56,511 nucleotides of DNA from a virus, in IMG/VR virus record IMGVR_UViG_3300032291_003763, positions 1 through 56,511 of that record. One strand, 5' to 3'. The notes under the pieces are model-generated. The model was not told the DNA's origin. It saw only the letters and a program-made list of their open reading frames with translations, and searched no databases. Below are positions 3,034 to 43,900 of the stretch, one piece after another; position 1 is the first letter of the stretch; the number at the start of each line of letters is the position of its first letter. The translations under genes and the position numbers were made by a program.

Positions 3034-3064
3034 ATGGGAAACTCCTATAGGTAAAGTGTGCTGT

Positions 3065-3072
3065 TATTTACA
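3065..3072 (-). promoter_or_regulatory. T4-type late promoter element (TGTAAATA)
   Basis: On the minus strand this reads TGTAAATA, one base from the T4 late -10 TATAAATA. It lies 31 bases upstream of the ATG of the acidic core protein, with a ribosome binding site in between. The element sits in the loop of a 5-bp inverted repeat (GTGTG at 3056-3060, CACAC at 3071-3075). No -35 box is expected for gp55-dependent promoters. Confidence 0.5.
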
Positions 3073-3130
3073 CACAAGGAGAAAAACACCAGGTTTAAGG
3101 GGTGAAAAAGGCGTATAAATGTAAAGTTTA

Positions 3131-3349
3131 TTACATTGGCGCAGCAGGAGGAGGTGCGTACTGTTTTTTGACCAGTTTGAGTTTCTCCTTGAACTCATAC
3201 ATTCTCACGTCATTCATCTTTCTCAACTTGTTGAGTTGACGCAGTGTGAGACGAGTTTTTCGCAAATCACTTTCTTGCGGCTGACTGTTGTCTTGCGACA
3301 AGTCTTGATACGCACTGGGTTCTTTGTGAAAAAATTCGTTTAACAGCAT
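3131..3349 (-). CDS. Small basic prohead-region protein (gp67 position)
   Basis: 72-residue protein between the portal gene and the acidic core protein. The middle (residues 29-62: KTRLTLRQLNKLRKMNDVRM and on) is basic, helical and probably amphipathic. The C-terminus is a short P/A-rich tail. No catalytic motif is visible. T4 has the small prohead core gene 67 at this locus, so a core or portal-assembly role is plausible, but sequence similarity to gp67 is not evident to me. It starts 8 bases after the portal stop, with the late-promoter octamer TATAAATA overlapping that stop. Confidence 0.6.
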   Translation of the reverse strand: MLLNEFFHKEPSAYQDLSQDNSQPQESDLRKTRLTLRQLNKLRKMNDVRMYEFKEKLKLVKKQYAPPPAAPM

Positions 3350-3354
3350 GTTGT

Positions 3355-3362
3355 TATTTATA
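3355..3362 (-). promoter_or_regulatory. Perfect T4 late promoter octamer (TATAAATA)
   Basis: On the minus strand it reads GTATAAATAAC, an exact match to the T4 late -10 octamer. It overlaps the stop codon of the portal gene and ends 5 bases before the ATG of the 72-residue gene. A start site at the usual distance would fall at or just inside that ATG, so it may drive a leaderless message or mainly serve the downstream core genes. Confidence 0.55.
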
Positions 3363-10880: not shown

Positions 10881-11723
10881 ATGAACCAAAACAGCAATCC
10901 ACTGCGTCAATTTTTTCGACAACCGCAGATCTATCTTAGACTGCCCAGTCAGGGCAACCACTGGCCAGAACACAGTCTTGAATTACCAGTCAACGGTGAA
11001 CTACCTGTATACCCCATGACTGCCATTGATGAAATAACTTACCGCACTCCTGATGCACTGTTCAACGGACAGGCAGTGGTCAATGTGATCCAAAGTTGTG
11101 TGCCGGCTATCAAAAATGCCTGGCACATGCCCAGCGTTGATACCAACAGTGTGTTGATAGCCATACGCATGGCCAGTTACGGGCATGATTTAGAAATTGC
11201 CAGCACCTGCCCCGGTTGCAACGAAAGCAATGACTATACCATGGATCTACGTTCAGTGTTGGATGCCATACGCATGCCCGAGCTTGATCTCAGTCTTGAT
11301 CAAGGAGATCTCAGTGTGTTTTTTGAACCTTTGAGCTATGAAACACAGAATTCTCACAGCCAACGTCAGTTTGAGCTGCAACAGACCATCAATTCAATCA
11401 CCAGATCAGAACTGACCGAAGCAGAAAAACTACAACGCATTTCTGACACTCTCAAAGAAATCACACAAATCACTGTGCGTGTGTTGGCTGCCAGTGTAAA
11501 GGGCATAAAGACCCCACAAGCATTTGTAACTGAAAAACAGCACATTGTGGAGTTCTTGAACAATTGTGATCGCAGCATGTTCAATGCCATCAAAGATCAT
11601 GTGGTAGACCTGCGCACTGCCAGTGATCTAAAACCCGTGGGCCTTAAATGCGTCAATTGCAGCCACGAATACCAACAACCATTGAACTTGGACATGTCGG
11701 ATTTTTTCGAGCCCGCCTCCTAA
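10881..11723 (+). CDS. 26: Baseplate hub assembly protein gp26
   Basis: 280-residue protein of the T4 baseplate protein family typified by gp26 (208 residues in T4), involved in hub assembly. The N-terminus has RQPQIYLRLPSQGNHW followed by LPVYPMTAIDEI and TPDALFNGQAVVNVIQSCVP, a conserved pattern in gp26 homologues of marine phages. Two CxxC pairs are seen, CPGC near residue 110 and CVNC near 257, a possible zinc-binding pair. Seventeen bases before its stop, the frame runs over T TTT TTC (11702-11708), a classic -1 slippery heptamer in the right phase, leading into the overlapping gp51-like frame. It starts 47 bases from the divergent tape-measure gene. Confidence 0.85.
   Translation: MNQNSNPLRQFFRQPQIYLRLPSQGNHWPEHSLELPVNGELPVYPMTAIDEITYRTPDALFNGQAVVNVIQSCVPAIKNAWHMPSVDTNSVLIAIRMASYGHDLEIASTCPGCNESNDYTMDLRSVLDAIRMPELDLSLDQGDLSVFFEPLSYETQNSHSQRQFELQQTINSITRSELTEAEKLQRISDTLKEITQITVRVLAASVKGIKTPQAFVTEKQHIVEFLNNCDRSMFNAIKDHVVDLRTASDLKPVGLKCVNCSHEYQQPLNLDMSDFFEPAS
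11702..11708 (+). other. Candidate programmed -1 frameshift site (T TTT TTC)
   Basis: The gp26 frame reads GA(T TTT TTC) GAG CCC GCC TCC TAA, so the heptamer is in the canonical X XXY YYZ phase. Slipping one base back continues as CGA GCC CGC and so on into the frame of the gp51-like protein, giving a fusion of 276 + 76 residues. Weak downstream pairing exists: TCGAG (11707-11711) with CTCGA (11725-11729), and a hairpin AGCAG/CTGCT at 11736-11749. Confidence 0.55.
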
Positions 11724-12872: not shown

Positions 12873-13997
12873 ATGTATTCAGTCCACCAACACTGGGATC
12901 CGTTACGAGTATGCATTGTGGGTCGTAGTTATCCACCAGAATTTTATTCTTGGATCACAGTACCACATGTGAGAAGTCTATTTGAAAAAATTGCAATTGA
13001 GACTGAAGAAGATTATCAGAACATAATTAAAAAACTTCAAGAGTTTGGCGTTGAGATTCTACGTCCAGATTTACCTAGTGAAACATTTATCAACGGTCAG
13101 CATGTTCCTCCTCCTATGTCTCCGAGAGATTGGACTGTGATGATTGGTGATAAATTTTACGAAATCCATTCATCAAACTTTCAATCATATAATAAAATAA
13201 AAGATCCGTCTTGGCCCGAGTGTAATAACTGGACGGAATTTAATCAATTGCCTGATTGGATGCAACAAGAATGCATCAAAGTACATAATTTTGGTCTAGA
13301 TCAAATAGTTCGCAAAGAATACAACAAAATTTTTGATCATATTAAAGCACAAGGCAACACCATTGTCAGTAGACCAGACGACCATGTTAATGGTGCCATG
13401 TGTGCAAGAATTGGAAAAGATTTGTATTTTGGTACAAAATCTTACGATCAAGATATTATTGCTTACCAAAGAAAAATTGATGCAACATTCTCTACAACCA
13501 GAAATCACATCGTGAACACCAATGGACACACTGACGGAACCTACTGCCCTGTGGCTCCAGGATTGATCATAAGTTTATGGGATGTGCCCACGTATGCAGA
13601 TACATTTCCTGACTGGGAAGTGGTATATCTTCCAGGACAAAGTTGGGGTGCAGTAAAACCATTTTTGTCTTTAAAAAAGAAAAACAAAGGTCGTTGGTGG
13701 ATTCCGGGCTTTGAACACGATAATGAAGTTATCGACGTTGTAGAACAATGGCTCGGACATTGGACTGGATACGTTGAAGAAACTGTGTTTGATGTCAACA
13801 TGCTGATCATTGATCCAAAAAATGTCATGGTATTCAACTACAACAAGCAAGTATTTGAAGCCTTTGCTAGATATGGCATCACCCCGCATGTGGTTCCTTT
13901 CCGTCATAGATATTTCTGGGACGGTGGCATACACTGTATCACTAGCGATTTACACCGAGAAGGTGTGCAGCAAGATTATTTTCCACAGAGAGGTTAA
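12873..13997 (+). CDS. Amidinotransferase-family (guanidine-modifying superfamily) protein
   Basis: 374 residues. The C-terminal two thirds line up by eye with arginine:glycine amidinotransferase. HTDGTYCPVAPGLIISLWD (His219) corresponds to the H-x-D catalytic-His region, VNMLIIDPKNVMVFNYNKQV to the following beta unit, and GGIHCITSDLHREG (Cys355) to the active-site-Cys motif near the C-terminus. The segment ARIGKDLYFG matches the RxGxDxF block, but the residue aligned with the acidic catalytic residue just before it appears to be Met. Family members transfer an amidino group from arginine or hydrolyse modified arginines, and the substrate here is unknown. AT-richer than the baseplate genes; ribosome binding site GGAG before the ATG. 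Follows the GNAT-like gene and precedes a DUF6614-like gene. Confidence 0.8.
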   Translation: MYSVHQHWDPLRVCIVGRSYPPEFYSWITVPHVRSLFEKIAIETEEDYQNIIKKLQEFGVEILRPDLPSETFINGQHVPPPMSPRDWTVMIGDKFYEIHSSNFQSYNKIKDPSWPECNNWTEFNQLPDWMQQECIKVHNFGLDQIVRKEYNKIFDHIKAQGNTIVSRPDDHVNGAMCARIGKDLYFGTKSYDQDIIAYQRKIDATFSTTRNHIVNTNGHTDGTYCPVAPGLIISLWDVPTYADTFPDWEVVYLPGQSWGAVKPFLSLKKKNKGRWWIPGFEHDNEVIDVVEQWLGHWTGYVEETVFDVNMLIIDPKNVMVFNYNKQVFEAFARYGITPHVVPFRHRYFWDGGIHCITSDLHREGVQQDYFPQRG

Positions 13998-13998
13998 C

Positions 13999-14340
13999 AT
14001 GGATTTATACACAATTTGGGCAGACAAAGAAGATGGTATCTCAGACATTGACTGGGTCACAGGAATGAAAAGTTTTTTTGATCATCTGGTAGAAGAGGGT
14101 CGGATGGAAACCTACAGGATCACCCGTTGCAAGATGGGATTCCGTAGTATCGCTGATATGCCTGAATGGATGATCATCATGGAGTTTCGAGACATGGGCC
14201 AAATGGACTCGGCATTTAAACGTGTTGCCCCACTCAAAGGCGATCTAGAAGTCAAACATCAATCATTCAATCAGTTTGTCAGCGGAAATATTCAACATGC
14301 ATTGTTTAGAGATTGGCCAGATACCAATTTAGATACTTAG
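13999..14340 (+). CDS. DUF6614-like protein
   Basis: 113 residues from the ATG just after the amidinotransferase stop; an upstream in-frame extension lies wholly inside that gene and is not credible. The pattern MDLYTIWADKEDGISDIDWV, RITRCKMGFRS, MEFRDMGQMDSAFKRVAP and ALFRDWPD resembles a small bacterial family of ferredoxin-fold-like proteins that I recall as DUF6614 (Y-x-I-W-x-D start, Y/W-R-(I/L)-x-R-x-K-(L/M)-G-F, A-F-x-x-V-A, L-(Y/F)-R-D-(F/W)-P-D). Function is unknown. Its last codons (14332-14340) form one arm of a perfect 12-bp inverted repeat with 14391-14402. Confidence 0.75.
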   Translation: MDLYTIWADKEDGISDIDWVTGMKSFFDHLVEEGRMETYRITRCKMGFRSIADMPEWMIIMEFRDMGQMDSAFKRVAPLKGDLEVKHQSFNQFVSGNIQHALFRDWPDTNLDT

Positions 14341-14402
14341 AAGATCTCTAACGAGATCTGTTGATTTCACTTCGTTCATCAACTGAATGTCTTCTAAGTA
14401 TC
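14332..14402. repeat. Branched inverted repeat 1 (12-bp outer stem, two inner hairpins)
   Basis: GATACTTAGAAG (14332-14343) pairs perfectly with CTTCTAAGTATC (14391-14402). Inside are ATCTC-TAAC-GAGAT (14344-14357) and GTTGAT/ATCAAC (14360-14365 with 14378-14383). The result is a three-way-junction shape that includes the stop codon of the preceding gene. There is no U-tract, so it is not a plain rho-independent terminator. Confidence 0.8.
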
Positions 14403-14407
14403 ATCTA

Positions 14408-14476
14408 GATACTGTGGTCATAATTCACCGTATGCACGGTGAATTTGAGAGCATCATCTGAGTGACCGCAGTCATC
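14408..14476. repeat. Nested inverted repeat 2 (10-bp hairpin inside a 10-bp stem)
   Basis: The inner hairpin AATTCACCGT (14422-14431) / ACGGTGAATT (14436-14445) is perfect with a 4-base loop. The outer arms ACTGTGGTCA (14411-14420) and TGACCGCAGT (14463-14472) pair over 10 positions with one G-U and extend through GAT/ATC after a one-base bulge. The G-U instead of a Watson-Crick pair is suggestive of selection on RNA rather than on DNA. Confidence 0.8.
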
Positions 14477-14490
14477 TATTTTAAAGAGAT

Positions 14491-14544
14491 TTGTACTTGT
14501 AAAACACACAACTTCTTACGAAATTATATTTCATACAAGCACAA
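14491..14544. repeat. Inverted repeat 3 (11-position stem)
   Basis: TTGTACTTGTA (14491-14501) pairs with TACAAGCACAA (14534-14544) at 10 of 11 positions, enclosing an A-rich 32-base loop. It continues the stem series of the spacer. Confidence 0.7.
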
Positions 14545-14781
14545 CGGAGGCGGTTGACCGGTACCCCCTACTCTAGCTTCACATATCAACGGAACCCTAG
14601 TAATCCGAAATAGATCCAAATTCTATAAGCTGGGGTTGTATCTGTTTCACAGAGCCCCGACCATTTGTTGCCTTAAGTTAGCAATTGCCTTTGACGCCCA
14701 AGAATCTGAATTGGGTATTTCACCAATCCTCAATGGGAGTGAGCCATGTCGCTCACCACAGTGTCTTAATTGTTGCCTATT

Positions 14782-15792
14782 TTATATTAGATATGTGTTT
14801 TGTAGAGTGTGGAGATTTGGTTCTAAAAGATTGTGCAGTTGATTGGTATTTGTAAATTTTTCTAATTCCCAAGTTTTTAAGTTTAAATTGTGTTTGTATA
14901 TAAGACAGTGTTGTATGGCTGCTTCTTGTAAAATGTCAAGATCAAATCTTACCAGATCCATATGGTTTCCGTTGATGATATAATCTATAATGGTATCAAA
15001 GTACATGGCAAATGACAGTCGATTAACATGTATTTTTTTCCATTTGTTATAAACATCATTCCAGTGAGATTTTCTTGCGTGATCGATTTTAACTTCTAAA
15101 AAATCAAACAGTTGATCAACTGTTTGATCAAACATGGTATGCAATTCAAATATGTTAACGCTATAATGCGGAATTGTTAGATCAACATTGACAGAGATTG
15201 TTTCAGTAGAAAATGGGCGTATATTCAATGCTAAAAATTCTCGTTGATCCCAGACATGATTTAAATTTTGTTCTTGCCATATTTTATAACTGTCGGCAAA
15301 AAAGTATTCAATGTAATCTATCATTTGCTCGTCATTGGATAAATTTCTTTGGTCGCGATTCATCCATTTTCTAGACAGTACTCTGAATCTTGACGAACAG
15401 TTATACAACGGATGACTACTAGACAACACAATAATTTTTTTAAATTCTGGAATAATAGAAGATATTAATTCAGCACTGGGTTGATGCCTGCTGCCCAGAC
15501 CAGGACCTGGATCTGAAGATATTATCTCATCAATTAGATTGTGAAAGTACATGGTATGAAAATCTGAAGTACCAGTATTTTTCAAAGTGGTCAGTATATC
15601 TTGTGCTTGATCAATCTTCCAAATTTGATTTGGAAGAAACAAATGAGCATTGATGTCATTGGTCGGATCGTCGGGTATACTAGTCCAACTGTTGGTTTTA
15701 GCATGAAAATAATTTTTATGACCAGCCAAGTAGTGAAGGCTCCATGTTAAAAATGTGCCTCCTACTCCTGGATCAGTTAGAATCAATATCAT
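14782..15792 (-). CDS. Sulfotransferase-like hypothetical protein (paralogue of 22200-23117)
   Basis: 336 residues, AT-rich. The N-terminus ILILTDPGVGGTFLTWSLHY resembles the start of P-loop sulfotransferase-like proteins (G-x-G-G-T-F-L in place of the PAPS-binding loop). The middle has HVWDQREFLALNIRPFS and the end EAAIQHCLIYKHNLNLKTWE. The same three blocks in the same order occur in the protein at 22200-23117 (VWAKREFLSFWWWP; EATIQMILRDTHKLEIKCY), so the two are paralogues with low identity. Enzyme activity is not demonstrated by these motifs. Its stop faces the structured spacer, and its start overlaps the GIY-YIG gene by 20 bases. Confidence 0.6.
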   Translation of the reverse strand: MILILTDPGVGGTFLTWSLHYLAGHKNYFHAKTNSWTSIPDDPTNDINAHLFLPNQIWKIDQAQDILTTLKNTGTSDFHTMYFHNLIDEIISSDPGPGLGSRHQPSAELISSIIPEFKKIIVLSSSHPLYNCSSRFRVLSRKWMNRDQRNLSNDEQMIDYIEYFFADSYKIWQEQNLNHVWDQREFLALNIRPFSTETISVNVDLTIPHYSVNIFELHTMFDQTVDQLFDFLEVKIDHARKSHWNDVYNKWKKIHVNRLSFAMYFDTIIDYIINGNHMDLVRFDLDILQEAAIQHCLIYKHNLNLKTWELEKFTNTNQLHNLLEPNLHTLQNTYLI

Positions 15793-16225
15793 GTTTTATT
15801 TTTAAATTTTTTAAGTGATTGGCGTGTACCCGTACCTGGATGTGCCCGTTGTAATAGTCGTCTGTTTCCAACACCATGCGTGAAAATTGTTCTCTTGCCT
15901 CAATGTATGAACACTCTGATTTAGAACTACAATAGTAAAGTATTTCTCTAGAAAAGTTTTCGGCCCCCAGTTCGATTACGTCTGCGGTCAATGCCGGACT
16001 TGATCCGTAGTACTCACGCCAGTCGCTGTCAATCTTTGATCGTATTTTTTTTCGTTTCTTTGTGCCGTTTTTTTGTTTGACTGTCTTGTGTGTTGTTTTG
16101 CTAAACTTGGCTAATTTTTTGCCTATGTACTTGCGTCCAGATAGATTATTTGTGATTAGATAAACAAATCCCACACATTCTTGGGGCAGTGTCTCAACTG
16201 GGGTGTCTTGATAAAACCATGTCAT
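15773..16225 (-). CDS. GIY-YIG family endonuclease (Seg-like)
   Basis: 150 residues. GFVYLITNNLSGRKYIGKK (residues 19-37) is the GIY-YIG core in the form F-V-Y ... Y-I-G. It is followed by a lysine-rich loop (KTVKQKNGTKKRKKIRSK), then DWREYYGSS, and YIEAREQF as the candidate catalytic-Glu helix. The protein is short and ends soon after the nuclease domain, with no obvious C-terminal DNA-binding domain. Comparable T4 proteins are the Seg homing endonucleases. It is free-standing, not inside an intron. It overlaps the sulfotransferase-like gene by 20 bases; its mobility is inference. Confidence 0.75.
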   Translation of the reverse strand: MTWFYQDTPVETLPQECVGFVYLITNNLSGRKYIGKKLAKFSKTTHKTVKQKNGTKKRKKIRSKIDSDWREYYGSSPALTADVIELGAENFSREILYYCSSKSECSYIEAREQFSRMVLETDDYYNGHIQVRVHANHLKNLKIKHDIDSN

Positions 16226-16270: not shown

Positions 16271-17128
16271 TTAGAATTGTGTTTGTTTTTGCCACTGTTT
16301 GTCAAATCTGGTTTGATTTTTGCTTGTACTACAAGTTTGTTTGCATACTGCGTTGGGTTCTGTGGTCCAGGTCTGTTGTATTTTTTCAAAATCTTCAACA
16401 AAATCTTGTTGTCTGCTGCCTAGCCAACAACAAGGACTCACACGCCCTTGTGCGTCTATGTAAGTGCTTTGTTCGTCAAGAGCATGACATGCTATGGGTC
16501 CCTGTGCTGGCTCAATTGGTTGCCAACCAGTGGGAAATCGCAGTGTTTCAGTAAATGCTCGTTTGGATACTTTGGCTCTAAACCACTTGAATCCCATGTC
16601 TTTAGCTAAACGTTCACATTCATCAACTTGGTGTTGATTGTGTTGATATACCAACATATCCCAATGTGCCGATCCCCCCGCAGCAATGTATGCCTCAACA
16701 TTGTGCATGAGTCTATGCCAATCAACTCCTTGGCGATATGTTGCATTGGTATATTCTAACCCATCAATGCTGAATACACAGTAATCTTGCGATTGATCAA
16801 AAATACGTCCCAGCTCATGCCACCATATGGTATTTTGCAATCCACCATTGGTGTTCATGCCCAGTACAATATTTTTGTTGACGGATCTAAAATAACGATA
16901 TAAGTCTAACGTGTATTTTCCAGCTGCTGGATCGCCGTAGTTGCCACACATGAACATTTTGTCAAGTGTTTTTATTTGCTCGTCAGGAAACAATTTTAAA
17001 ATGTCACGGACTGTTAAATGATGCTGCGATGTTTTATCAAAGGCAGCATCAGTTTCTCTAGCGCACAATGCACATTTGGCCTGGCACACGTCTGTGGGCT
17101 CAAGGTGCAGGACTTTGATATCACGCAA
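16271..17128 (-). CDS. Radical SAM protein with SPASM-like C-terminus
   Basis: 285 residues. CQAKCALC (Cys15, Cys19, Cys22) is the CxxxCxxC motif binding the radical-SAM 4Fe-4S cluster, and MCGNYGDPAAGK around residues 60-71 fits the G-x-x-G-E/D-P glycine motif. The C-terminal part has CHALDEQSTYIDAQGRVSPC with CW directly after, then VCKQTCS, a cysteine pattern typical of SPASM/twitch domains that hold auxiliary clusters in peptide- or RNA-modifying enzymes. The start is TTG at 17128: an in-frame stop lies two codons upstream and no early ATG exists. It overlaps the gp46 stop by 8 bases. No precursor peptide gene is seen nearby, so the substrate is unknown. Confidence 0.82.
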   Translation of the reverse strand: MRDIKVLHLEPTDVCQAKCALCARETDAAFDKTSQHHLTVRDILKLFPDEQIKTLDKMFMCGNYGDPAAGKYTLDLYRYFRSVNKNIVLGMNTNGGLQNTIWWHELGRIFDQSQDYCVFSIDGLEYTNATYRQGVDWHRLMHNVEAYIAAGGSAHWDMLVYQHNQHQVDECERLAKDMGFKWFRAKVSKRAFTETLRFPTGWQPIEPAQGPIACHALDEQSTYIDAQGRVSPCCWLGSRQQDFVEDFEKIQQTWTTEPNAVCKQTCSTSKNQTRFDKQWQKQTQF

Positions 17129-19205
17129 GATCTACATCCGTACTGTAACTGGTAAAGCCATTTTCTTTGACCACTCGCAGTATGTTTTCCACACGCCCGG
17201 CCAGCTCGTCCCGGTGACTCACAAGCCAGATGCTTTTGTGGCGTTCACGAGTCATCTTCTTCAACAATGCCAAACTGGCTTCTACACCCTGTGTGTCCAG
17301 GCCTGAATCAATCATCTCGTCAATGAACAAGATGTTGATAGGATGATACAAACTTTCCCACACATCACGGAATGCCCAACTCATACTAAGTATCAAACGA
17401 TTGCGTTCACCACGACTCAAGTTATCAAAGTCTAGTTCACGACCCAGTTCTTCAATACTAACACTCAAATCGTTTTGGAACTTCACTGTGTGTGGCAATC
17501 CAATACGATCCAAATAGTGTGTAAGTCGCGTGTTCAAGTAGCTCAAGTTCTGATCAATGATCTTCTTGCGAACAAATGAGTCTTTACTGGTCAACAACTT
17601 GAGCAAAAACTCTTGATGATCTTGTACTTTGGTCAGTTCATTGATCCGGTTGTAGTCAACCGTCTGCAGAGCCTGTTGTTGCATGTCTTCAATTTGTTCG
17701 CTGTAAGGATCAGTTTCGGCATGCTTGCTGGTGATCTGTTGTAGCAGGTTGTTGACCTGTGTGGAATGTTTGACGGCCTGTGCTTCTGTGTCGTAGTGTG
17801 TGACAGGCTGTGCGCCCAGTTCTACTGCAACATAACCCACAAGTTGTTCAGCATAAGGATCTGCTTCTGCTGATTTGTCTGTGATTTTTTGCTGTAGATT
17901 TTCTAATTCACTGCTGTGACGGATAGCTTCTGCTTCAGTCCGGTAGTGTGTTGTGGGCTTGATACCCAACTCACCCAGTGAACATAGTGCATCAGTATTT
18001 TCCATCCACTGACCGTTGGTGGCCAAGACTTGTAGTGCAGCCTCCTGCAAACTTTTACGTTTGGTTTCTAACACTGATTCATGAGCACCGTCGTGAAATT
18101 CTTGTCCACAGGCATAACACTTGTGTGCTTCTAGTTCAGCAATCTCCAATTTTAGTTTTTCAACTGTTTTTTGTTCTTTGTTCTCGTCGGCCACACAACG
18201 AGCAATGAGTCGTTCAAGTTCAGCAATGTCCCTAGCTTTTTGATTATACGCTGCTAGGTCTTGGTGTGCTTGTAGTTCTGCTGAGACGTCAATATGACTG
18301 AGTTGGTCATAACTGGCTTGCAAGGCAGTGATCTCCTTGGCTTGTGTTTGTTGCCAGGCAGTTTGGTATGCCAGCAATCGACCATGTGCATCTGCTTGTT
18401 TCTTGCGCTCATTCCATAATGCAAGATCCTTGTGTGCCAACAACTCTGCTTCAATGTTGACTCGAGCCAAGTCATCATATTGACCCACAAGATATGCCAG
18501 ATCACTGTTGTATTTCTTTTGCCACAGGCCCTGTCGTCGACGCAGACTTTCTATTTGTTCTTCAATGCGCTTGTTGGCTTCTTGCACAGCACGTACTCTA
18601 AACTCTTCGGATGTGATCGAATCTTTAGTGGCCTTGTTTAATTCTTTAATGCGGTCTGCACGTTCACTCAGCACAGTAATGCCCAACAACTGCTCAATAA
18701 TGGTGCGTTGCTCATTGGCTTTCAAACTCAAGAATGGTTCTGTGTAAGTGTTCAACGCCAAGATGTGCTTGAACATGTCGTGACTCATACCAAACACACT
18801 TTCAATGGCATCTTGTGTTTCACGGCTGTCTCCTTGCGCATCGTCTGTGGCAGTTTGTTCTTCGCTGTCAACATAAAAGCGCAACACGTTGGGCTTGCGC
18901 CCACGTTCAATCTTGTAGGTTTTGCCATTGACAACAAAGTCCAAGCTGACTAACATGCCTTTGCTATTGGTTTTGTTCACAAGGTTGTCCTTGCGAATGT
19001 TGCTCAATGCTTGTCCATACATGGCATAACTTAATGCATTGATAATTGTGGTTTTACCTGTGCCATTGCGGCTGCCGTCACCACCTAGGTCTAAGTTTTC
19101 ACCTAGCACAAGTGTAAGATCATTGCGGTCAAAGTCAATAGCCTGCGTGGCTGCACCCACACTCATAAAGTTTCGAACAGTAAGATTTTTTATATTAATT
19201 GACAT
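17121..19205 (-). CDS. 46: Recombination endonuclease subunit gp46 (Rad50/SbcC-like)
   Basis: SMC-type ATPase partner of gp47, which resects DNA ends for recombination-dependent replication and degrades host DNA. 694 residues (T4 gp46 is 560). Walker A is seen as SRNGTGKTT (Lys51). Long coiled-coil arms run from about residue 190 to 560, with a zinc-hook CYACGQ near 363. An ABC signature NLSRGERNRL lies near 597, and Walker B ILFIDEMID near 623. The start ATG at 19205 gives MSINIKNLTVRNFMSVG, the usual N-terminal strand. In this genome it is separated from gp47 by two inserted genes. Confidence 0.95.
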   Translation of the reverse strand: MSINIKNLTVRNFMSVGAATQAIDFDRNDLTLVLGENLDLGGDGSRNGTGKTTIINALSYAMYGQALSNIRKDNLVNKTNSKGMLVSLDFVVNGKTYKIERGRKPNVLRFYVDSEEQTATDDAQGDSRETQDAIESVFGMSHDMFKHILALNTYTEPFLSLKANEQRTIIEQLLGITVLSERADRIKELNKATKDSITSEEFRVRAVQEANKRIEEQIESLRRRQGLWQKKYNSDLAYLVGQYDDLARVNIEAELLAHKDLALWNERKKQADAHGRLLAYQTAWQQTQAKEITALQASYDQLSHIDVSAELQAHQDLAAYNQKARDIAELERLIARCVADENKEQKTVEKLKLEIAELEAHKCYACGQEFHDGAHESVLETKRKSLQEAALQVLATNGQWMENTDALCSLGELGIKPTTHYRTEAEAIRHSSELENLQQKITDKSAEADPYAEQLVGYVAVELGAQPVTHYDTEAQAVKHSTQVNNLLQQITSKHAETDPYSEQIEDMQQQALQTVDYNRINELTKVQDHQEFLLKLLTSKDSFVRKKIIDQNLSYLNTRLTHYLDRIGLPHTVKFQNDLSVSIEELGRELDFDNLSRGERNRLILSMSWAFRDVWESLYHPINILFIDEMIDSGLDTQGVEASLALLKKMTRERHKSIWLVSHRDELAGRVENILRVVKENGFTSYSTDVDLA

Positions 19206-34300: not shown

Positions 34301-34944
34301 TCATTGATCTTTATGTAGTAACTCAAAGTTATTACACAGCTTATCAAAATTGGCTACGCGATACCACAAACACTGTGCTACAACCAGAAACGCCTACCAT
34401 TGATGAACTCAGTACAGAATATCAAAAATTACAAGATTATAAAATGATTAGCGACACCATGATTATTAATTCGGTACAATTTAAACCTTTGTTTGGACCC
34501 AAAGCAGCTCAAGAACTACGAGCCACCATCAAAGTTATACGTGCTCAAAATTCCACAGCCAGCGTGAGTGAAATCAAAAGTTCTGTGTTGGCCGAAATCA
34601 ACACTTATTTTTCCATTGACAAATGGAATTTTGGAGATACCTTTTACTTCAGTGAGCTAGCAGCATATTTGCATCGACAACTGGGTTCTATTATTAGTTC
34701 TGTGGTGTTGGTGCCGTTAGACCAACAAAAAAGTTTTGGTGACCTATACGAAATACGCAGTCAGCCCAACGAAATTTTTGCCAATGGTGCCACCATTGAC
34801 AACATTGATGTTATTCAGGCTCTGACCAGCAGCAATTTACGCACTGCACCGGGCAGTGGTGTTGGCGGCGGTATAGCAACCACAGTAAATGGTACCAGCG
34901 CCAGTGGTACCAGTGTTAGTACCGGTGGCGGTGGAGGCTATTAA
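31354..34944 (+). CDS. 6: Baseplate wedge protein gp6
   Basis: 1196 residues, nearly twice T4 gp6 (660). The N-terminus YREADFQSYDFETLRKSFID and LRLYYPETFNDYIESSEFIA, then MGQALAFRTDLNTRENYLDT is the conserved gp6/BaseplateJ-like start. VYTVTSRANDQITMVFGDGV-like segments follow (the actual text begins IYTVTSRANDQ). The C-terminal conserved part is LRATIKVIRAQNSTASVSEI, then INTYFSIDKWNFGDTFYFSE. A beta-rich insertion of about 400 residues lies around 560-960. It ends in a G/S/T-rich tail whose stop overlaps the next start (TAATG). gp6 dimers form the iris of the wedge in the family. Confidence 0.9.
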   Translation: MATTTRQTAIFGVEDWKQIYQTYREADFQSYDFETLRKSFIDYLRLYYPETFNDYIESSEFIALLDVIAFMGQALAFRTDLNTRENYLDTAERRDSVVRLANLVSYTAKRNTAAQGFLKVFNVTTTENVVDYNGVNLSNVTVNWADATNPDWQEQFTAIINASLVDSQRVGRPGNRQTILGVRTDEYGINLVPGFLPVIPYTATVDGVSMPFEAMTSTSVGEDYVYEPAPVPNTTFNILFKNDQLGFQSANTGYFFLFKQGILQNQDFNLAERIANRTVDINIEGVNNEDRWLFQLDDVGNIAQQWQYTEDIYQAAAERATALQSIYTVTSRANDQITMVFGDGVFSQIPVGTFRAYVRASNGLQYIINPEEMQNVVLPISYTDRNGNLQTITFTCGITRPVSNSQAREPIAAIKQRAPARYYTQNRMVNGEDYNLFPYTAYNSIIKSKAVNRASIGTSRYLDLVDNTGKYSSTNTFSSDGALWQENILPTILFSWTNRNEIADVITNQVQPTLTQATVKQFYYANFPRVTSATVPIGVTWLPGYTWNQSTTLANETTGYFKNTTISTTFPSGAPIPIGATTTTMFKYAVVGSLIQFVPPTGYYFDRNNRLAQGTPTRAGETLEIWASCQQIIGDGSNNGVGNLSTGSGPVTINNFVPTGAVVNAIIPLFVTDLPNSVEQAMAEQILLNRNFGLGYDSNGDITGTPYTWYVILQQNLYSTQQNGDPATWAQIPESPQVNTPPNGLAGNNNGINSDASWLIKFEVQNQNYTITFRGLSYSFGSVLQTRFFFYEDQLVYDSRTGTVIKDFVNVLSVNTQPNSTAPLPGDVIMTIIGQPVESDGYVDDFQVLVGYRDSDNDGVPDNPDFFNDIVGPVTASGPFVFFQQTVDFDNLQRYLLVEPGRVNYNYGTLDQIELAKTEWSPGQVFYAYAQNSFYELSISTTGVRTIVSVSGWLAQGGRQALYFQYRHNSPLSNRIDPGTTNIIDLYVVTQSYYTAYQNWLRDTTNTVLQPETPTIDELSTEYQKLQDYKMISDTMIINSVQFKPLFGPKAAQELRATIKVIRAQNSTASVSEIKSSVLAEINTYFSIDKWNFGDTFYFSELAAYLHRQLGSIISSVVLVPLDQQKSFGDLYEIRSQPNEIFANGATIDNIDVIQALTSSNLRTAPGSGVGGGIATTVNGTSASGTSVSTGGGGGY

Positions 34945-37900
34945 TGGCACGTACTAGATCAGTAGATTTTCTACCAGAAATATTTCAAACTCCAGTCAAC
35001 AAGCAGTTTTTAGCAGCTACTTTGGATCAGTTGATTCAAGAACCCAAGTTCAAAAAAACACAAGGGTTTATTGGTCGCACTGTGGGTCCTGGGGTCAACC
35101 CCAATGATGCCTATGTGGTAGAACCAGGCAAAACTCGACAGGATTATCAACTTGAACCAGGGGTTGTGTCATTGAAACCCGACACCAATGTCATCAACAA
35201 CGTGATCACATATCCAGGGATCAATGATGCAGTGGCATTGCAAGGCGGCAACATTGATCGTGCTGACCTTTTGTACAACAGCGATTATTATACCTGGGAT
35301 CCTTTTATTGACTATGACAGTTTCATCAACTTCAGTCAATACTATTGGCTGCCCAGTGGTCCCAGCACAGTTGATGTGAATTCCAGTGGCGTGCCATTGC
35401 AACAAAATTTTTCAGTCACCCGGGGCACTGATTCTTATCTATTTTCTGGACAGACTGGTGCCAATCCCACGTTGTATCTAGTACGTGGCGGCAATTATAA
35501 TTTTGCAGTGGCTCAAAATGCAACTGAAACTGTGAATTATCGGGTGGCCAATGATGCTTCTTCGTCTTATCAAATTCAACAACAAACCAACCCCACATTG
35601 ACCTTGGTACGTGGCAACACCTATGTGTTCGAATTAAATTTGAACGGCGATTATCCTTTTTGGATCAAAACCGAACCCAGTCTTGGCACAGGCGATGCCT
35701 ATCAAACAGGTGTGCGCCGAAACGGCAGTGCATTTGGCGATATTACCTTTGTGGTTCCTCAGGACGCACCAGACACACTGTACTACACCAGTCAAAATTT
35801 TACCAACATGCAAGGTATTTTGCAAATTGTAGACGGTCAATCAGGTACCGGCCCAGGATTTTGGATACAGACTGCGCCAGGAATCAGTGGCACAGTGCCC
35901 AGCACACCCAACATCAGCAGCCGCAATGTGTTAGGAGTAATCAACAACGGCACTGATCTTGGCACAATTGAATTTGAGGTACCTTCTAAAACTGCTCAAC
36001 AATTTTATTACAATTTGCCCAATGTTGGGCCTGTTGACTTTCTCACCGATCTGCCATTCAATGAAATCAACAATCAACCATTGGCCACATTTATTCAAAC
36101 ACAAGGCGGCATTGACGGAGTTACCTATCTGCAAAATCGCACCTTGGTGTTTACCAGCACAGAAGAATCTGGTTGGGTCAACGGTGCCAGCACTGTTGCT
36201 CCAGCCGACAGATATCAGATATGGCAAATCAACATTGTGTCAGTGCTTGGTGTTGACGTCATCAATCTTGTAAAAATAGCCAACATTGGATTCAATCAAA
36301 AGTTCACATTGGCCTACGGTAACCAATACAGCAACACCAGTTGGTATAAAAATAATCTTGGTTTATTTCAACAGATACCGTTGTTGTCCGCAGTGACATC
36401 TGAATTATATTACCAAGACTCTACAAATCCTGATCTGTTTGGACGCATTGTATTGTTGGATCCTGATCAACAAAACACAATTTTTATAGACAACATCTTA
36501 GGTCAATCTGCATATACTTCTCCCAATGGAGTGGTATTTACTAATGGTCTCAAAGTGCGTTTCACTGGCGATGTGATACCCGCCAGTGCAGCATCTAATT
36601 CTGCGCAATTCACTTGCACTGCTACCACAGCCGGCAGCAACCTTATCACCTGCAGCAGCACAGCCGGCCTGTATGAAGGTATAGAAATTGTTTTCTCAGG
36701 TACCACAGCCGGCGGCATTGTGCCCGGTGACGTTTACTACGTGAAATCAATTGCGGCCAACGGTATTCAATTTAGTATCAGCACTGTGGTTGATGGTGCT
36801 ACTTATGCAGTGAGCACAGCCACCGTGGCCGGATTCACTGCCACCGCTACCAGCAACAATGAATTTTATGTCAGCGGTGTGGGAACAGCTATTGCATTGT
36901 TGCCTGTGCGAAATTTTGTTACTCCTGAAACTTATGTGGTTGATGCCAACGACAGTACCATTGCCACAGAGCCTGACGAAGTAGACTATCTCACCATTGA
37001 TCGTGCCAGCAATGATCTCAATGCTTGGACACGCAGTAATCGTTGGTTTCATGTGGATGTGATCACCGCTGCTGCTGGCTACAACAACACCGTGATTGAA
37101 CTGAACAACAACTATAGAGCCAAACGACCCATCATAAGTTTCAGACCTGGTATACGATTATTCAACATGGGTGTACAAGGCAAACAACCTGTGGACGTGA
37201 TAGATTTTGAAACCACAGATGCATTTAGCGAAGTTGAAGGTTCCACCGGCTATGCAATTGATGGCTACAGTTTGGTTGATGGATCACGTGTGATCTTTGC
37301 AGCCGACCTTGATCCAGATGTACGAAACAAAATTTACACTGTGCAATTTATAGAACCTGACAGTGTGCCACCATTGATAACACAACCTATCATTCATCTG
37401 TCATTGACCAGTGACGGTCTAGTGGTGCCCACTCAAAGCACAGTGTGTCTTGAAGGCAATGATCTCAAAGGCATTACATTCTGGTATGATGGTGTGGAAT
37501 GGTTGCAGGCCCAACAAAAAACGTCAGTGCAACAGGCTCCGTTGTTTGATGTGTACGATGCCAGCGGTTTCAGTTTTGCAAATACCAACAGTTATCCCAG
37601 CAGCACCTTTGTGGGCAGTAAATTATTCAGTTATGCTGTGGGAGACACTTCTGTAATTGATCCTATATTAAAATTCCCCCTGCAGTATCTCAACATCAAC
37701 AATGTGGGTGACATTGTTTTTGAAAACAATCTCTACAAAGATACCTTTGTGTATGTGGTAGACAATGTGTCTACCACAGCTGATATCAGCTCTGGTCTGG
37801 CCAGAGAATATGCCAATATCATTGATTATACAAAACTGATTGGCTGGCAGCCAGCTGCTGCTACCAGTCAACAGTATCAACAGTTTAGATTTGTGTACAC

Positions 37901-40900
37901 CGGGCAGACTCTGACCCTTGACGTGGCGGTGAGCACTACCACTGTGATGCCGGTGCTAAAAATATATGTGGGATCTAATTTTGTCTCTCCCAACGATTAC
38001 ACCTATAGGGTGGGCAGCCGCAGCACTGTTATAACTTTTGATCAAGAATATTTGCTCACTGATGTTATTGAAGTACTGGCTCTGAGTGATCAGAGTTCAA
38101 CAGTTGGATTTTATCAGGTACCTGTTAACCTTCAAAACAATCCACTCAACAGCAACAGCAACAGCTTTACACTGGGCACTATTCGCACACAGTATCAGAC
38201 TATATGTGAAAATTTGCCTGCATTGACTGGACCCATTGCTGGAGCCAACAACACCAGAGACCTGGGTAATTTAGTGCCCTATGGACTGACCATATTGCAA
38301 CACAGCGCACCTATGACCTTGGCTGGTTATTTTTTGCGCAGTGACCAATACAACATATGGTCCAGTATGCAGTTTAACAGCAATGAATATTTGAAATTCA
38401 AAGGTCAACTGCTAAACGCAGTCACACAACAAACCATTCAGTTTCAAGGCACCGCAGACGTTTTAGACACTGCATTGGCTGACATCACTCTGGGACGAGT
38501 AGAAACTCAGCCTTTTTACTGGAGCGACATGTTGCCTGCTGGTGCTGTGTATACCACGTTAAATTACACTGTATCTCGCACCACAACCAATACATTTGAT
38601 GTCACACAGGTTTACAACTACACATCAGCCAACTATCTTGGCATGAATGTGTATTTGAACAATGTGATTCTCATGCGTGACCGCGATTACACTGTGGCCA
38701 CTGATGGGCCTAGAATCACTGTGTTGATCAATCTCACTCTGGGCGATCAACTGATGATTCGAGAATATGCTGACACTGCTGGCAATTTTGTACCCAATAC
38801 ACCTACCAAATTAGGGCTGTATCCGGCCTGGCGACCAGAAATAGTCACCATTCAAACCACTTCGGGCGCTCAAACTGTGATCATAGGTCATGATGGCAGT
38901 CAAACCAGAACTTTTGATGACATACGCGATGATGTGTTGTTGGAATTTGAAACCAGGATTTTTAACAATTTAAAACTGGACGGAAATCCTGTGCCACTGA
39001 CTGCAACAGATGTGATTCCAGGTCAGTTTAGATCAACCGGTTATAGCCTAGATCAAATCAACAACATTTTGGGCACAGATTTTTTAAGCTACGTAGCTTG
39101 GAACAAACTGGACTACAAAACTCAAGATTATCAGGCCAACAACGAATTCAGCTGGAACTATTCTGACAGTCAAAGTCGACTTGACAACAACAGTGTGCCT
39201 GGCGCCTGGCGAGGTATCAATCGCTTGTATTACGACACACAACAACCTCAACTGGTGCCATGGGAACTGTTGGGATTTACTATCAAACCCAGTTGGTGGC
39301 AAGATCGCTATGGCCCAGCACCGTATTCTCAAGACAACTTGGTGTTGTGGGAAGATCTTGAAGCCGGTTATGTGGCTGATCCTGTGGCACCGTATTATTT
39401 GCCACAGTATGCAAGACCCGGACTGTTGTCTGTGATACCCACCGGCACAGAAGGTCAACTGCTGAGTCCGTTTGACTCAGTGATCAGCACATTTGATGCA
39501 CAGACTTTTAGAAAAAGTTGGAGCCTGGGCGATGGCGGTCCCGTCGAAGCTTCTTGGTGGAATTCCAGCGCCTATCCGTTTGCAGTGATGCGACTGCTGG
39601 CCCTGACACAAACTGCTAAGTTTTTTGCATTGTTTGCTGATCGCGACTTATACAAATTTAATTCTGATTACGGACAATATCTCTATGACAACAGATACCG
39701 ACTCAATGCCAACCGCATTGAAGTGTATGGCAACGGTGTCAGCAAGGCCAGTTATATCAATTGGATTGTTGACTACAATCGCCAGTCTGGTTTGGACAGC
39801 ACCAACGATTTGTCCAATGATCTTGACTTCATTGATGTGCGACTGTGCTACCGTATGGCCAGTTTTTCAGACAAACAATACATCAAGATTTACACTGAAA
39901 AATCCAGCCCCAATTCTGTTAATACCACTTTTTTAATTCCTGATGAAAATTACAACTTGGTATTGTATAAAAACCAACCTTTTGACCGGGCCAGTTACAG
40001 TGCTGTGGTAATTCAAAAATCTGGTTTGGGATATGCTGTGTTTGGTTACAGTACCAGTCAACCTTATTTCACAGTGCAACAAAGTATGAGTTCAGGCCTG
40101 TTGCAGACCTATACCGTGGCCGGAGTCACTGTAAAAGTGTCCACAGTTTACACTGATAACACAGTGAACATTCCTTATGGTTATGTGTTTGCCAGCACCA
40201 CGGCTGTGGCTGATTTCTTGTTGAGTTATGGACAATACTTGCAGAGACAAGGACTAACGTTTGAAGACAGCACAAATGGTTACATCTTAAACTGGCCACA
40301 GATGGTAACAGAATTTTTGTATTGGAGTCAACAAGGTTGGGACGAGTCTGCTCTAATTAATTTGAATCCTTTGGCATTCAAACTCAGTGTGACCAAGCCA
40401 CAGGCCGTGGTTGACAGCATTCAAGCACAGACCACTGACAACATTTTGTTGGACCAAAATCGTAGAGAATTATTTACACGTAATTTGATTATCACACGTC
40501 TAGACAACACATTCACAGTGGAACCGGCCAACGAACAAACTTTAAGTTTTATAGATGTAAAATACACGTCATACGAACACATGATTGTGCTGGACAATTC
40601 CAGTTTGTTTGGAGATGTAATCTATGATCCTATAACTGGAGCAAGACAAAGTAGATTGAATCTCACAGCAGTGACCACTACAGAATGGAATGGCTCGGTG
40701 GACGCACAAGGATTTGTGCTTAATCAAAACAATATTGAGGAATGGAGTTCTGACCGAACTTACACCAAAGGTGAGATAGTACTGTTCAAAGGAGCATACT
40801 GGTCCGCAGCCACTATTGTGCAGCCCACAGCAGTATTCAATGCCAATGATTGGATCAAAAGCGACACAGATCAGATACAACTGGGTTTGTTGCCCAACTT

Positions 40901-43900
40901 GGCCACCAAAGCCGACCAATTGACCAACAGTTACAACATCAATTCAGCCAATCTTGAAAGTGACAATGACCTGTTGAGTTACGGGTTGATTGGTTTTAGG
41001 CCACGAGAATACATGACCAGTTTGAATTTGGACGATGTCAGTCAGGTCAATGTGTACCGACAGTTTTTAGATTCTAAAGGCACAGTGCTCAGTGCAGAAT
41101 TGTTCAGTCAAGTCAATCTTGGCAAGGAAGCAGCTGACTATGACATATTTGAAAACTGGGCTGTGCAACGAGCAGTTTATGGAGCCAATGCCAATCGCAG
41201 CTATGTGCAACTGAGACTGGATCAGGCCCTGCTAGATGCCAACCCCAGTGTGATTCAAGTAATCAACACTCAACAGACCAGCAAAGCTGATCAAACTGTG
41301 CTGGTGTCCGAAATATGGCGTGAAAGTTTTCCTATCACATCACCAGACTTTTTGCCTACAACCACGGATCTGCCCACAGACACAGCATTGCCATCAGCAG
41401 GCTACGTGAATCTTGACGATGTTGATATCACAGTGTTTGATATCAACAACACTGACAGTTTGTCTGCCAGCATTGACAGCATTGGGGTGGGTACCACGGT
41501 ATGGGTGGCCAAGATCAATGACTATGACTGGGCTATCTATCGCACACAGGCTGTGCCAGGAACAATTTCGCATGTTTGTGATAATTTAGATGGCACAAGC
41601 CTGGTGATATTTACACAACCACATGAATTATCTGTTGGTGACAAGTTGATCATCAAATTTTTTGATCTAGAAGTCAATGGGGTGTACACAGTGCTCACTG
41701 TGCCCAGTTTGGAAAAAATCACAGTGGCCTTTAGTTTTACCGGTGATCGTACTGTGGTCAATGGCACAGGACTTGGATTCACATTGACAACACAGCGTGT
41801 GGCACAGGCCAGTGATATCTTGTTGTTACCTTATGCCAACACCATTGAGCCAGGAGCTCGAGTCTGGGTGGACAACAACGGCAATGGCTCGTGGGCTGTG
41901 TTAGAAAAACAAGAAGTGTTTTCTGAATTGTTAAGTGTGAGTCCTGCTGTCAAAGACATCAATCAGCAGTATGGCACCGCAGTGGCACAGGCACAAAATC
42001 GTTTTGCAGCCCTGGTAGGTAGTCCGTTGTATCGGTTACCTGAAACGTTTTCACAATGGAGTATTAACGATACTTACACACCTGGTGAAATTGTAGTGGT
42101 GCCTGACCCTGTGCAAGCTGAATTTTTCCAGTGTAAAAATGCTGTTGCAGTAGCAGGAGTTGTGAATATTTACAACACTAGTTATTGGACTCCTTATAAT
42201 ATTTCTGCACAGCCTCAACGAGGTGCAGTGTACGTGTATGTCAAAAACAACAGTGAAACTTATTCACCCATATCGCCGTTGGCCCCTGAAGATGCTGTGC
42301 TGAGCCTTGACGTTTTTCATGTCAGCGGCACCAGCACGAATGCCAGCATTTCAGGAACTGTTTTGACTCTGGGCGGCACTGTGATTGGCAGTTTTGAACC
42401 TGGTATGATACTCACTGGCAACAATGTTGTCAGTGATACTACTATTTTAGCACAGCTTACTGGCACTGCTGGACTTGCTGGCACGTACTCCATAAGTGTG
42501 GACTATACTGCACTGTCGCCTGTGTCTGCCACTGCGGTTGCTGCAAACGTTCCGGCTGTTAGAAATCTTGGTGCGGCACTGACTTTTGGCAATCAAGCAT
42601 GGGCTGCTGCTGGCGCCCCGGGCAGCCTGGGCTCCACAGGTACTGCGGACAATGGTTATGCAGTGGTTATCTATCGTGCTCCTGAATTGGGCGCAGCCGG
42701 CACCATACCTTTTGCCAATTGGCAACTGTTAACCAGCCCCAACTCAGTTATTGCCGCTGAAAAATTTGGATCAGCTGTGGCCATGAGCCAAGACGAACGT
42801 TGGTTGTATGTGGCAGCCGCTGGGAACAATGCAGTGCATGCCTATGCGCAGGTGCCTTGGGAAGATCAAAAAATTCGTGCTTTTTCAGACGGAGTCACCA
42901 AGTCTTATTTTATTGGCAATACCATACAGATCGATCAAGACACACAATTGACTGTGCTGGTAGAAGGCAACAAGCAAACACTGGGCGTGGATTACACTGT
43001 GACTGAACTGTTGACACAAGTGATTTTTGTCACTGCACCAGCGCAAGGTGAGTTCATTGAAATTGTTCGCACCAGCAGAATTTTGTTGGATCAACAAGTC
43101 TCTTATGATGTTGTTCAAAGTGCCACATCAGGCGCTGGCACTGGCGCCAAATTCACTGTGGTTTATCAACGCAATCAGGTAGGCCCCACAGTAAGTCAAC
43201 CCAGCAACACTGTTGGATCAGTTTCAGTATCAGCTGGTGGAGTCAATTACGTCGTAGGCAATACCATTACTTTGTCAGCTGCCAGCTTTGGCGGTCAAAG
43301 TGTGAATGGTGCTATTACCTTGACTGTGTTAGGTGTAGACGCCACCACTGGTGCTGTTTCTACATTCTCTGTGGCCTACACACCCACAGTGTTGGCCACA
43401 CAGTTTTCATTGAATGAATACCTGTACACTGTGGACAGTGTCTACAGTTTTTCAGTGCTGGTAGATGGTGTGTTACAACGACCAGGAATTGATTATGGGT
43501 ACAGTGGGCTCAATGACGACATAACATTTATTAATGTTCCTGTTGCAGGTGCTGCCATACTGATACGGGCTGAAAGCTATTATGAATACTGCGACACCAT
43601 AACCAATGTCAACAGTGTGAGTGGTGACCAGTTTGGATACAGCGTGAGCACCAGCACTGATGGTCGCCAAATATTGATTGGTGCCAATCAAACCACAGTA
43701 GATACTGATGATCAGGCCGGAACTGTTTATGTGTATGATCGCTGTGTGCAAAAATTTATCTATGGTACAGATGGCAGCACTGTTACGTTCACAGTGTTGG
43801 GCACAGTGAATAGCCCAGTGGCAGTATTGGTCAATGGTGAATTTTTCACCAACGAAATTTCAGCGGCCCCCAATGCTACTAACACTTTTACAGTGTCTGG

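Follow-up and report, generated by a model that had tools for sequence, protein, structure and literature searches.

A conserved structured RNA between convergent gene blocks of uncultivated T4-like phages

What occupies the 441-nt non-coding spacer (positions 14341-14781) between a plus-strand DUF6614 gene and a minus-strand gene of 336 aa in IMG/VR record IMGVR_UViG_3300032291_003763? We analyzed the whole record (56,511 bases, hereafter the window), which is possibly only a fragment of a virus and carries T4-like phage genes (portal protein, gp46/gp47-like SbcC/SbcD, and baseplate hub). A first-pass annotation had described about 440 bases of highly structured sequence, of exceptional size, between convergent genes at this site, and inferred either a new structured phage RNA or a cluster of processing and termination signals. 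The spacer is real, and no other non-coding gap in the window is as long, the median gap being 10 nt (ORFs of at least 80 aa); positions 14332-14340, which had been counted in, are the final bases of the DUF6614 gene. In line with the annotation, ARAGORN detected no tRNA or tmRNA in the window, and no ORF longer than 34 aa lies wholly within the spacer. The spacer folded better than 100 of 100 dinucleotide shuffles on both strands (z = −5.25 for the plus and −5.83 for the minus strand). The second largest gap (3034-3357, 324 nt), flanked by two minus-strand genes, folded only modestly better than its shuffles (z = −2.45). Elsewhere in the window, an ORF of 5212 codons (34944-50582, plus strand) is much longer than its neighbours and probably encodes a giant structural or adhesin-like protein.

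Relatives of the spacer

We scanned IMG/VR twice for relatives. An exact 23-mer from the middle of the spacer (GGAGGCGGTTGACCGGTACCCCC) was found in at least 120 contigs, against a chance expectation of essentially none, and about 90 distinct sequences could be aligned around it across some 400 nt. For the second scan we used a separate motif taken from the minus strand (GGCTCTGTGAAANAGATACAACC), which was present in at least 119 contigs. The exact 23-mer occurred in only 7 of the 103 new loci of this second scan, and the family profile matched all 103. Combined, the scans yielded more than 220 loci, a lower bound, every one of which was matched by a single profile. A covariance model built from 33 sequences recovered 86 of 86 tested loci (E = 1e-61 to 8e-7; these values are rough, given the short calibration). 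We also picked 77 loci by their gp26 protein, independently of the RNA; the RNA was present in 58 of them, including 41 of the 47 with at least 4 kb of downstream sequence, and always on the strand opposite gp26. RNA-bearing contigs reached more than 340 kb.

Searches outside these uncultivated viruses gave no convincing member of the family. Neither motif occurred exactly in any of 84,980 genomes of bacteria and archaea, and a cellular origin was rejected on this ground. Plasmids gave no match, and blastn with four queries against 50,697 phage records returned chance matches only. Among cultured jumbo phages, neither those that share the gp46/gp26 layout (PA5oct, Atu_ph07, Phosso, and Kaldavass) nor XacN1, which has a related gp26, gave a convincing homolog in profile and covariance searches. 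The phages that share the layout do have spacers at that site, some of them long. In the gp46-gp26 interval of Pseudomonas phage PA5oct (L123, 4340-4372), a sequence spotted by eye (AAAGGATGTTGCTCTGGTAGAAAAAGATCAAC) resembles the signature motif of the family; it is not supported as a homolog: the model scores it at 7.4 bits (E = 1.7), the other parts of the fold are lacking, and no intermediates were found when IMG/VR was searched for exact copies of this variant. In Sinorhizobium phage Phosso, an unannotated gap of about 1 kb near gp46/gp26 (L124, 3760-4774) contains many apparent hairpins and matches neither Rfam nor the family; it is possibly another structured RNA. Xanthomonas phage XacN1 has a hairpin-rich unannotated gap of 510 nt (L126, 3853-4363), likewise without an Rfam or family match.

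Covarying fold and coding strand

We assessed covariation against a tree-based null in which the substitutions of each branch were replayed at random sites. Sixteen column pairs reached E ≤ 0.5, of which 13 were Watson-Crick (12 of these at E = 0); of the three others, two belong to the repeats R1/R2 treated below and one adjoins a covarying pair. Among 63 diverse sequences, 91.6% of cells were paired versus 69.4% when shuffled, double changes were seen in 536 cells versus 155 expected, and the covariation score was 0.58 versus 0.17. The signal was lost when the partner was shifted by 1-3 columns. This alignment (39 pairs) was fitted to the model and is biased towards it, and the two pseudoknots (PK1 and PK2) lie outside the model. 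In an unfitted MAFFT alignment of 33 sequences, 95.3% of cells were paired versus 87.7%, with 24 doubly changed pairs versus 12.7.

Covariation analysis of related loci and an Rfam search had both been proposed as checks on the annotation. Covariation proved strong, and the window, the spacer, 13 relatives, and 5 isolate loci matched no Rfam 15 family at the gathering score, with GOLLD, ROOL, OLE, RNase P, tmRNA, introns, and riboswitches among the families tested; only three chance-level matches (E = 0.7-3.3) were returned. Nor is the family described in the literature searched, which did not cover non-open papers and preprints. These results support the reading as a new structured phage RNA.

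The conserved elements are listed in Table 1. The signature hairpin, whose inner UGUG/UACA and loop are nearly invariant, is the most universal motif of the family. The junction helix encloses the GGGGG/CCUCC hairpin together with a variable hairpin (14491-14544) that is unusually long in the window. In divergent members L033 (4127-4378) and L127 (3538-3798), an extra domain separates the signature hairpin from the PK2 region.

Table 1. Coordinates of the RNA, its structural elements, and neighbouring genes in the window
Feature	Position	Strand	Remarks
gp26-like baseplate hub gene	10881-11723	+	left anchor of the conserved locus; PF12322, phrog_150
DUF6614 gene	13999-14340	+	left neighbour of the spacer
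Hairpins P1 and P2	14342-14359, 14357-14386		covarying; T-rich sequence after them on the + strand in many relatives
Conserved RNA core	14399-14780	-	family HMM 14780-14353, 369 bits; covariance model 14681-14452, 197 bits
Repeat R2	14400-14406	-	AGAUGAU on the RNA; agrees with R1
Hairpin AAUUCACCGU/ACGGUGAAUU	14422-14445	-	retained in nearly all members
Repeat R1	14453-14459	-	AGAUGAU on the RNA; agrees with R2
Pseudoknot PK1	14474-14615	-	HB loop 14608-14615 with linker 14474-14481; 6 of 7 pairs with double changes
Junction helix	14485-14488/14571-14574	-	4 of 4 pairs with double changes, 99% paired, 63 sequences
GGGGG/CCUCC hairpin	14546-14568	-	carries the PK2 3' strand; nearly invariant G-U (A-C on +)
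Pseudoknot PK2	14553-14590	-	GUUGAU (14590-14585) with GUCAAC (14558-14553); compensatory variants
Helix HB	14598-14607/14616-14625	-	apical loop 14608-14615; 10 of 10 pairs changed on both sides, 63 sequences
Signature hairpin GGCUCUGUGAAAnAGAUACAACC	14632-14658	-	outer stem 14632-14635/14655-14658 covaries
Hairpin UUGC-UAACUUAAG-GCAA	14666-14685	-	covarying pair 14668/14684, E 0.5, tree-based null
5' domain	14693-14765	-	covarying pairs
5' domain closing helix	14693-14695/14763-14765	-	covarying pairs
5' domain inner helix	14697-14700/14734-14737	-	covarying pairs
5' domain hairpins	14710-14714/14723-14727, 14739-14743/14752-14756	-	covarying pairs
336-aa gene	14782-15792	-	right neighbour of the spacer
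GIY-YIG (SegE-like) gene	15773-16225	-	PF19835, E 5e-32; one gene away from the RNA
gp46 (SbcC-like) gene	17121-19205	-	same convergent block; phrog_77, E 1e-104

Both pseudoknots were supported by matching within sequences. For PK1, the within-sequence match was 7.1 bp, compared with 5.4 (sd 0.15) when strands were shuffled across sequences, and for PK2 it was 4.5 compared with 2.5 (sd 0.21). The PK2 test is conservative because some scores of 1 reflect a wrongly parsed CCG anchor. Compensatory variants of PK2 include GCGUA/UACGC, GUCGU/ACGAC, GAAAC/GUUUC, GUCGC/GCGAC, and GUCAG/CUGAC, among others.

The annotation had read its stems on the plus strand, whereas the conserved RNA is on the minus strand. 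Over 26 covarying pairs in 63 sequences, 258 cells were G-U and 36 were A-C when read as minus strand, and nearly invariant positions pair on that strand only: the 23-mer gives GGGGG/CCUCC including one G-U, and two nearly invariant G-U pairs of helix HB become A-C mismatches on the plus strand. Because G-U cells outnumber A-C cells and invariant positions pair only there, we assign the RNA to the minus strand; a plus-strand RNA was rejected by these counts and by RNAalifold energy. The 5' end lies near 14778-14780, where it meets or falls within the preceding gene's stop codon, and the 3' side lies near 14399 (approximate). The RNA is about 380-400 nt in size, with its 3' end undefined. A promoter search yielded nothing beyond chance.

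The extent of the RNA and its conserved helices had not been recognized correctly, although the individual stems quoted do exist. The 10-bp hairpin (14422-14431/14436-14445) is present, as is, by reading, the nested helix ACTGTGGTCA/TGACCGCAGT (14411-14420/14462-14471), which covariation did not confirm. The 12-bp outer stem can be found as a perfect 13-bp stem (14332-14344/14390-14402), but it is absent from close relatives, where a different sequence takes its place, and it falls outside the conserved fold. Termination signals fit the left edge only (hairpins at 14342-14386 followed by T-rich sequence on the plus strand) and not for the core of about 300 nt. A scan for intrinsic terminators gave a single site, at this edge (14342-14359, plus strand), versus 0.3 expected. 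P1 and P2 are probable terminators of the plus-strand genes; P2 (GAGCG..AGCGAA on the minus strand) persists in remote members as well and may double as the 3' part of the RNA.

The comparisons establish that the fold, including two pseudoknots, is conserved, that the minus strand encodes the RNA, and that each locus has a single copy at a fixed position.

Gene neighbourhood, paired repeats, and possible roles

The RNA follows the gp47-gp46-nuclease genes and converges on late plus-strand genes. Of 196 loci, 132 (80 of 104 and 52 of 92 in the two sets) have a GIY-YIG gene (PF19835) as the first gene on the 5' side of the RNA and on its strand, and 23 have a PD-(D/E)XK/RusA-like nuclease (PF24608, phrog_244) there; the remaining loci carry cargo instead, such as SGNH-like or sulfotransferase-like genes (named by eye from sequence). 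On the 3' side, DUF6614, gp51-like or gp26 genes, and assorted cargo were found. The RNA is retained while the neighbouring genes change. Judged by comparison of these loci, independence from neighbouring gene families and a wide distribution can likewise be regarded as demonstrated. In the window, and as a rule in relatives, the gene downstream of the RNA is on the opposite strand, except that some loci of the second set have unassigned same-strand ORFs downstream. The usual absence of a gene after the RNA on its own strand argues against a riboswitch or mRNA leader.

Two observations concern the neighbours themselves. A 374-aa protein encoded at 12873-13997 (phrog_25854, no function given) has the look of amidinotransferase-type cargo, and its relatives recur beside the RNA on either strand. 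In addition, GIY-YIG and RusA/PD-(D/E)XK nucleases are interchanged where the gp47-gp46 block ends; this suggests that the GIY-YIG protein possibly resolves junctions instead of acting as a selfish homing nuclease.

The RNA carries two copies of RGAUNA, R1 and R2, about 50 nt apart, with two variable positions and five states. In 136 of 137 sequences, or 91 of 92 once duplicates are removed, R1 and R2 had the same base at each of the two positions, and this covariation, which is not of Watson-Crick type, had E = 0 against the tree-based null. Simple gene conversion is argued against because the bases flanking R1 and R2 differ. The straightforward reading is that R1 and R2 are two sites for one partner. 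No such partner is known: the tree-based test found no third column varying with R1/R2, and no partner protein was found.

Our preferred explanation, held with moderate confidence, is that the spacer encodes a new family of large structured phage noncoding RNA, which has a fixed minus-strand position in T4-like phage genomes and acts in trans; the mechanism is inferred, without transcript data. The RNA would be transcribed as the tail of the gp47-gp46-nuclease block, an inference from its 5' end, which abuts the preceding gene's stop codon or overlaps with it, and would then either be freed or persist as a stable 3' end. That it works in trans, as a folded RNA, is inferred from the usual lack of a downstream gene on the same strand. 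Both RGAUNA repeats may be exposed and bound by one partner, either a protein dimer or one RNA or DNA sequence, for which the RNA could be a scaffold or decoy. A more far-reaching version remains tentative, and we consider it rather doubtful: that nearly all members of a large uncultivated T4-like lineage have this RNA as a component, and that one trans partner recognizes its two identical, co-evolving RGAUNA elements, the whole forming an RNP or RNA-decoy machine undescribed in phages.

The element could instead act in cis, as a 3' untranslated element or terminator cluster that ends and stabilizes the convergent mRNAs. Its site between convergent blocks, its 5' end at a stop codon, and the resemblance of P1/P2 to plus-strand terminators with T-rich tails are compatible with this. 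However, termination would not call for anything like the roughly 300 nt that lie past P1/P2 and contain two pseudoknots, concerted repeats, and loops that hardly vary, and the preceding gene varies while the RNA does not, which leaves this explanation unlikely. At some plasmid and T4 origins, structured primer RNAs prime replication via an R-loop, and a single fixed locus adjoining the replication/recombination genes gp46/gp47 would suit a replication element in which the RNA, or the DNA behind it, does the same; we give this only a slim chance. The change in GC skew is expected anyway at a convergent junction.

TnpB and IscB nucleases use an omega RNA, and the nuclease genes that so often stand just before the RNA invite the idea that it is the guide or cofactor of its neighbour. 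This is very improbable: two unrelated nuclease families, or cargo that is no nuclease at all, lie beside the same RNA, isolates carry the same GIY-YIG family without it, and neither RNA end has a variable guide segment. Least credible is processing of the transcript by a ribozyme, either self-cleaving or a self-splicing remnant: the invariant unpaired segments and two pseudoknots have a complexity like that of catalytic cores, but no Rfam ribozyme or intron family matched, no host gene is interrupted, and no splice-site or cleavage-site signature was identified.

Comparison with known systems

Only a few large structured RNAs are known from phages, and their roles are unknown. The RNA described here adds one that is abundant, occupies one fixed locus in a large uncultivated T4-like group, and shows unusually clear covariation with two pseudoknots. 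With so clear a record of the fold, structural work and the search for a partner can begin directly, and the concerted repeats are a concrete, testable lead to function. More generally, phage spacers in public viral data still contain whole RNA families missing from Rfam.

The closest counterparts in kind are GOLLD and ROOL, large ornate multi-helix RNAs of phages and prophages whose function is unknown (PMC12286853, PMC7567579). Like them, the new RNA is a large, multi-helix, elaborately folded phage RNA in a gene-free spacer. It differs in length (about 390 nt versus 600-800 nt) and in matching no Rfam family, and whereas GOLLD and ROOL are often near tRNA genes, the window has none and the neighbours are gp46, nucleases, and gp26. 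Its fixed position between gp46 and gp26 and its concerted RGAUNA repeats also set it apart. Vibrio phage ICP1 makes an abundant noncoding transcript of about 800 nt between gp139 and gp140 (PMC7567579), which is comparable in that an RNA comes from a large stretch without genes in the genome of a lytic phage; length and gene context differ, ICP1 was absent among the matches listed in the phage blastn searches, and no sequence relation was found. Omega and HEARO RNAs of TnpB/IscB/IsrB are also structured RNAs beside a nuclease gene, but here no TnpB or IscB was seen, the nucleases belong to two unrelated families, and a guide segment is lacking. Intrinsic terminators resemble P1/P2 in their hairpins with a T-rich tail on the plus strand, yet they explain 14342-14398 only and not the core of 300 nt. 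From sequence alone, no known system can be named whose way of working the RNA shares. Compared with these systems, the RNA is a new family of a kind already known, large structured phage noncoding RNA, and its paired repeats are unusual.
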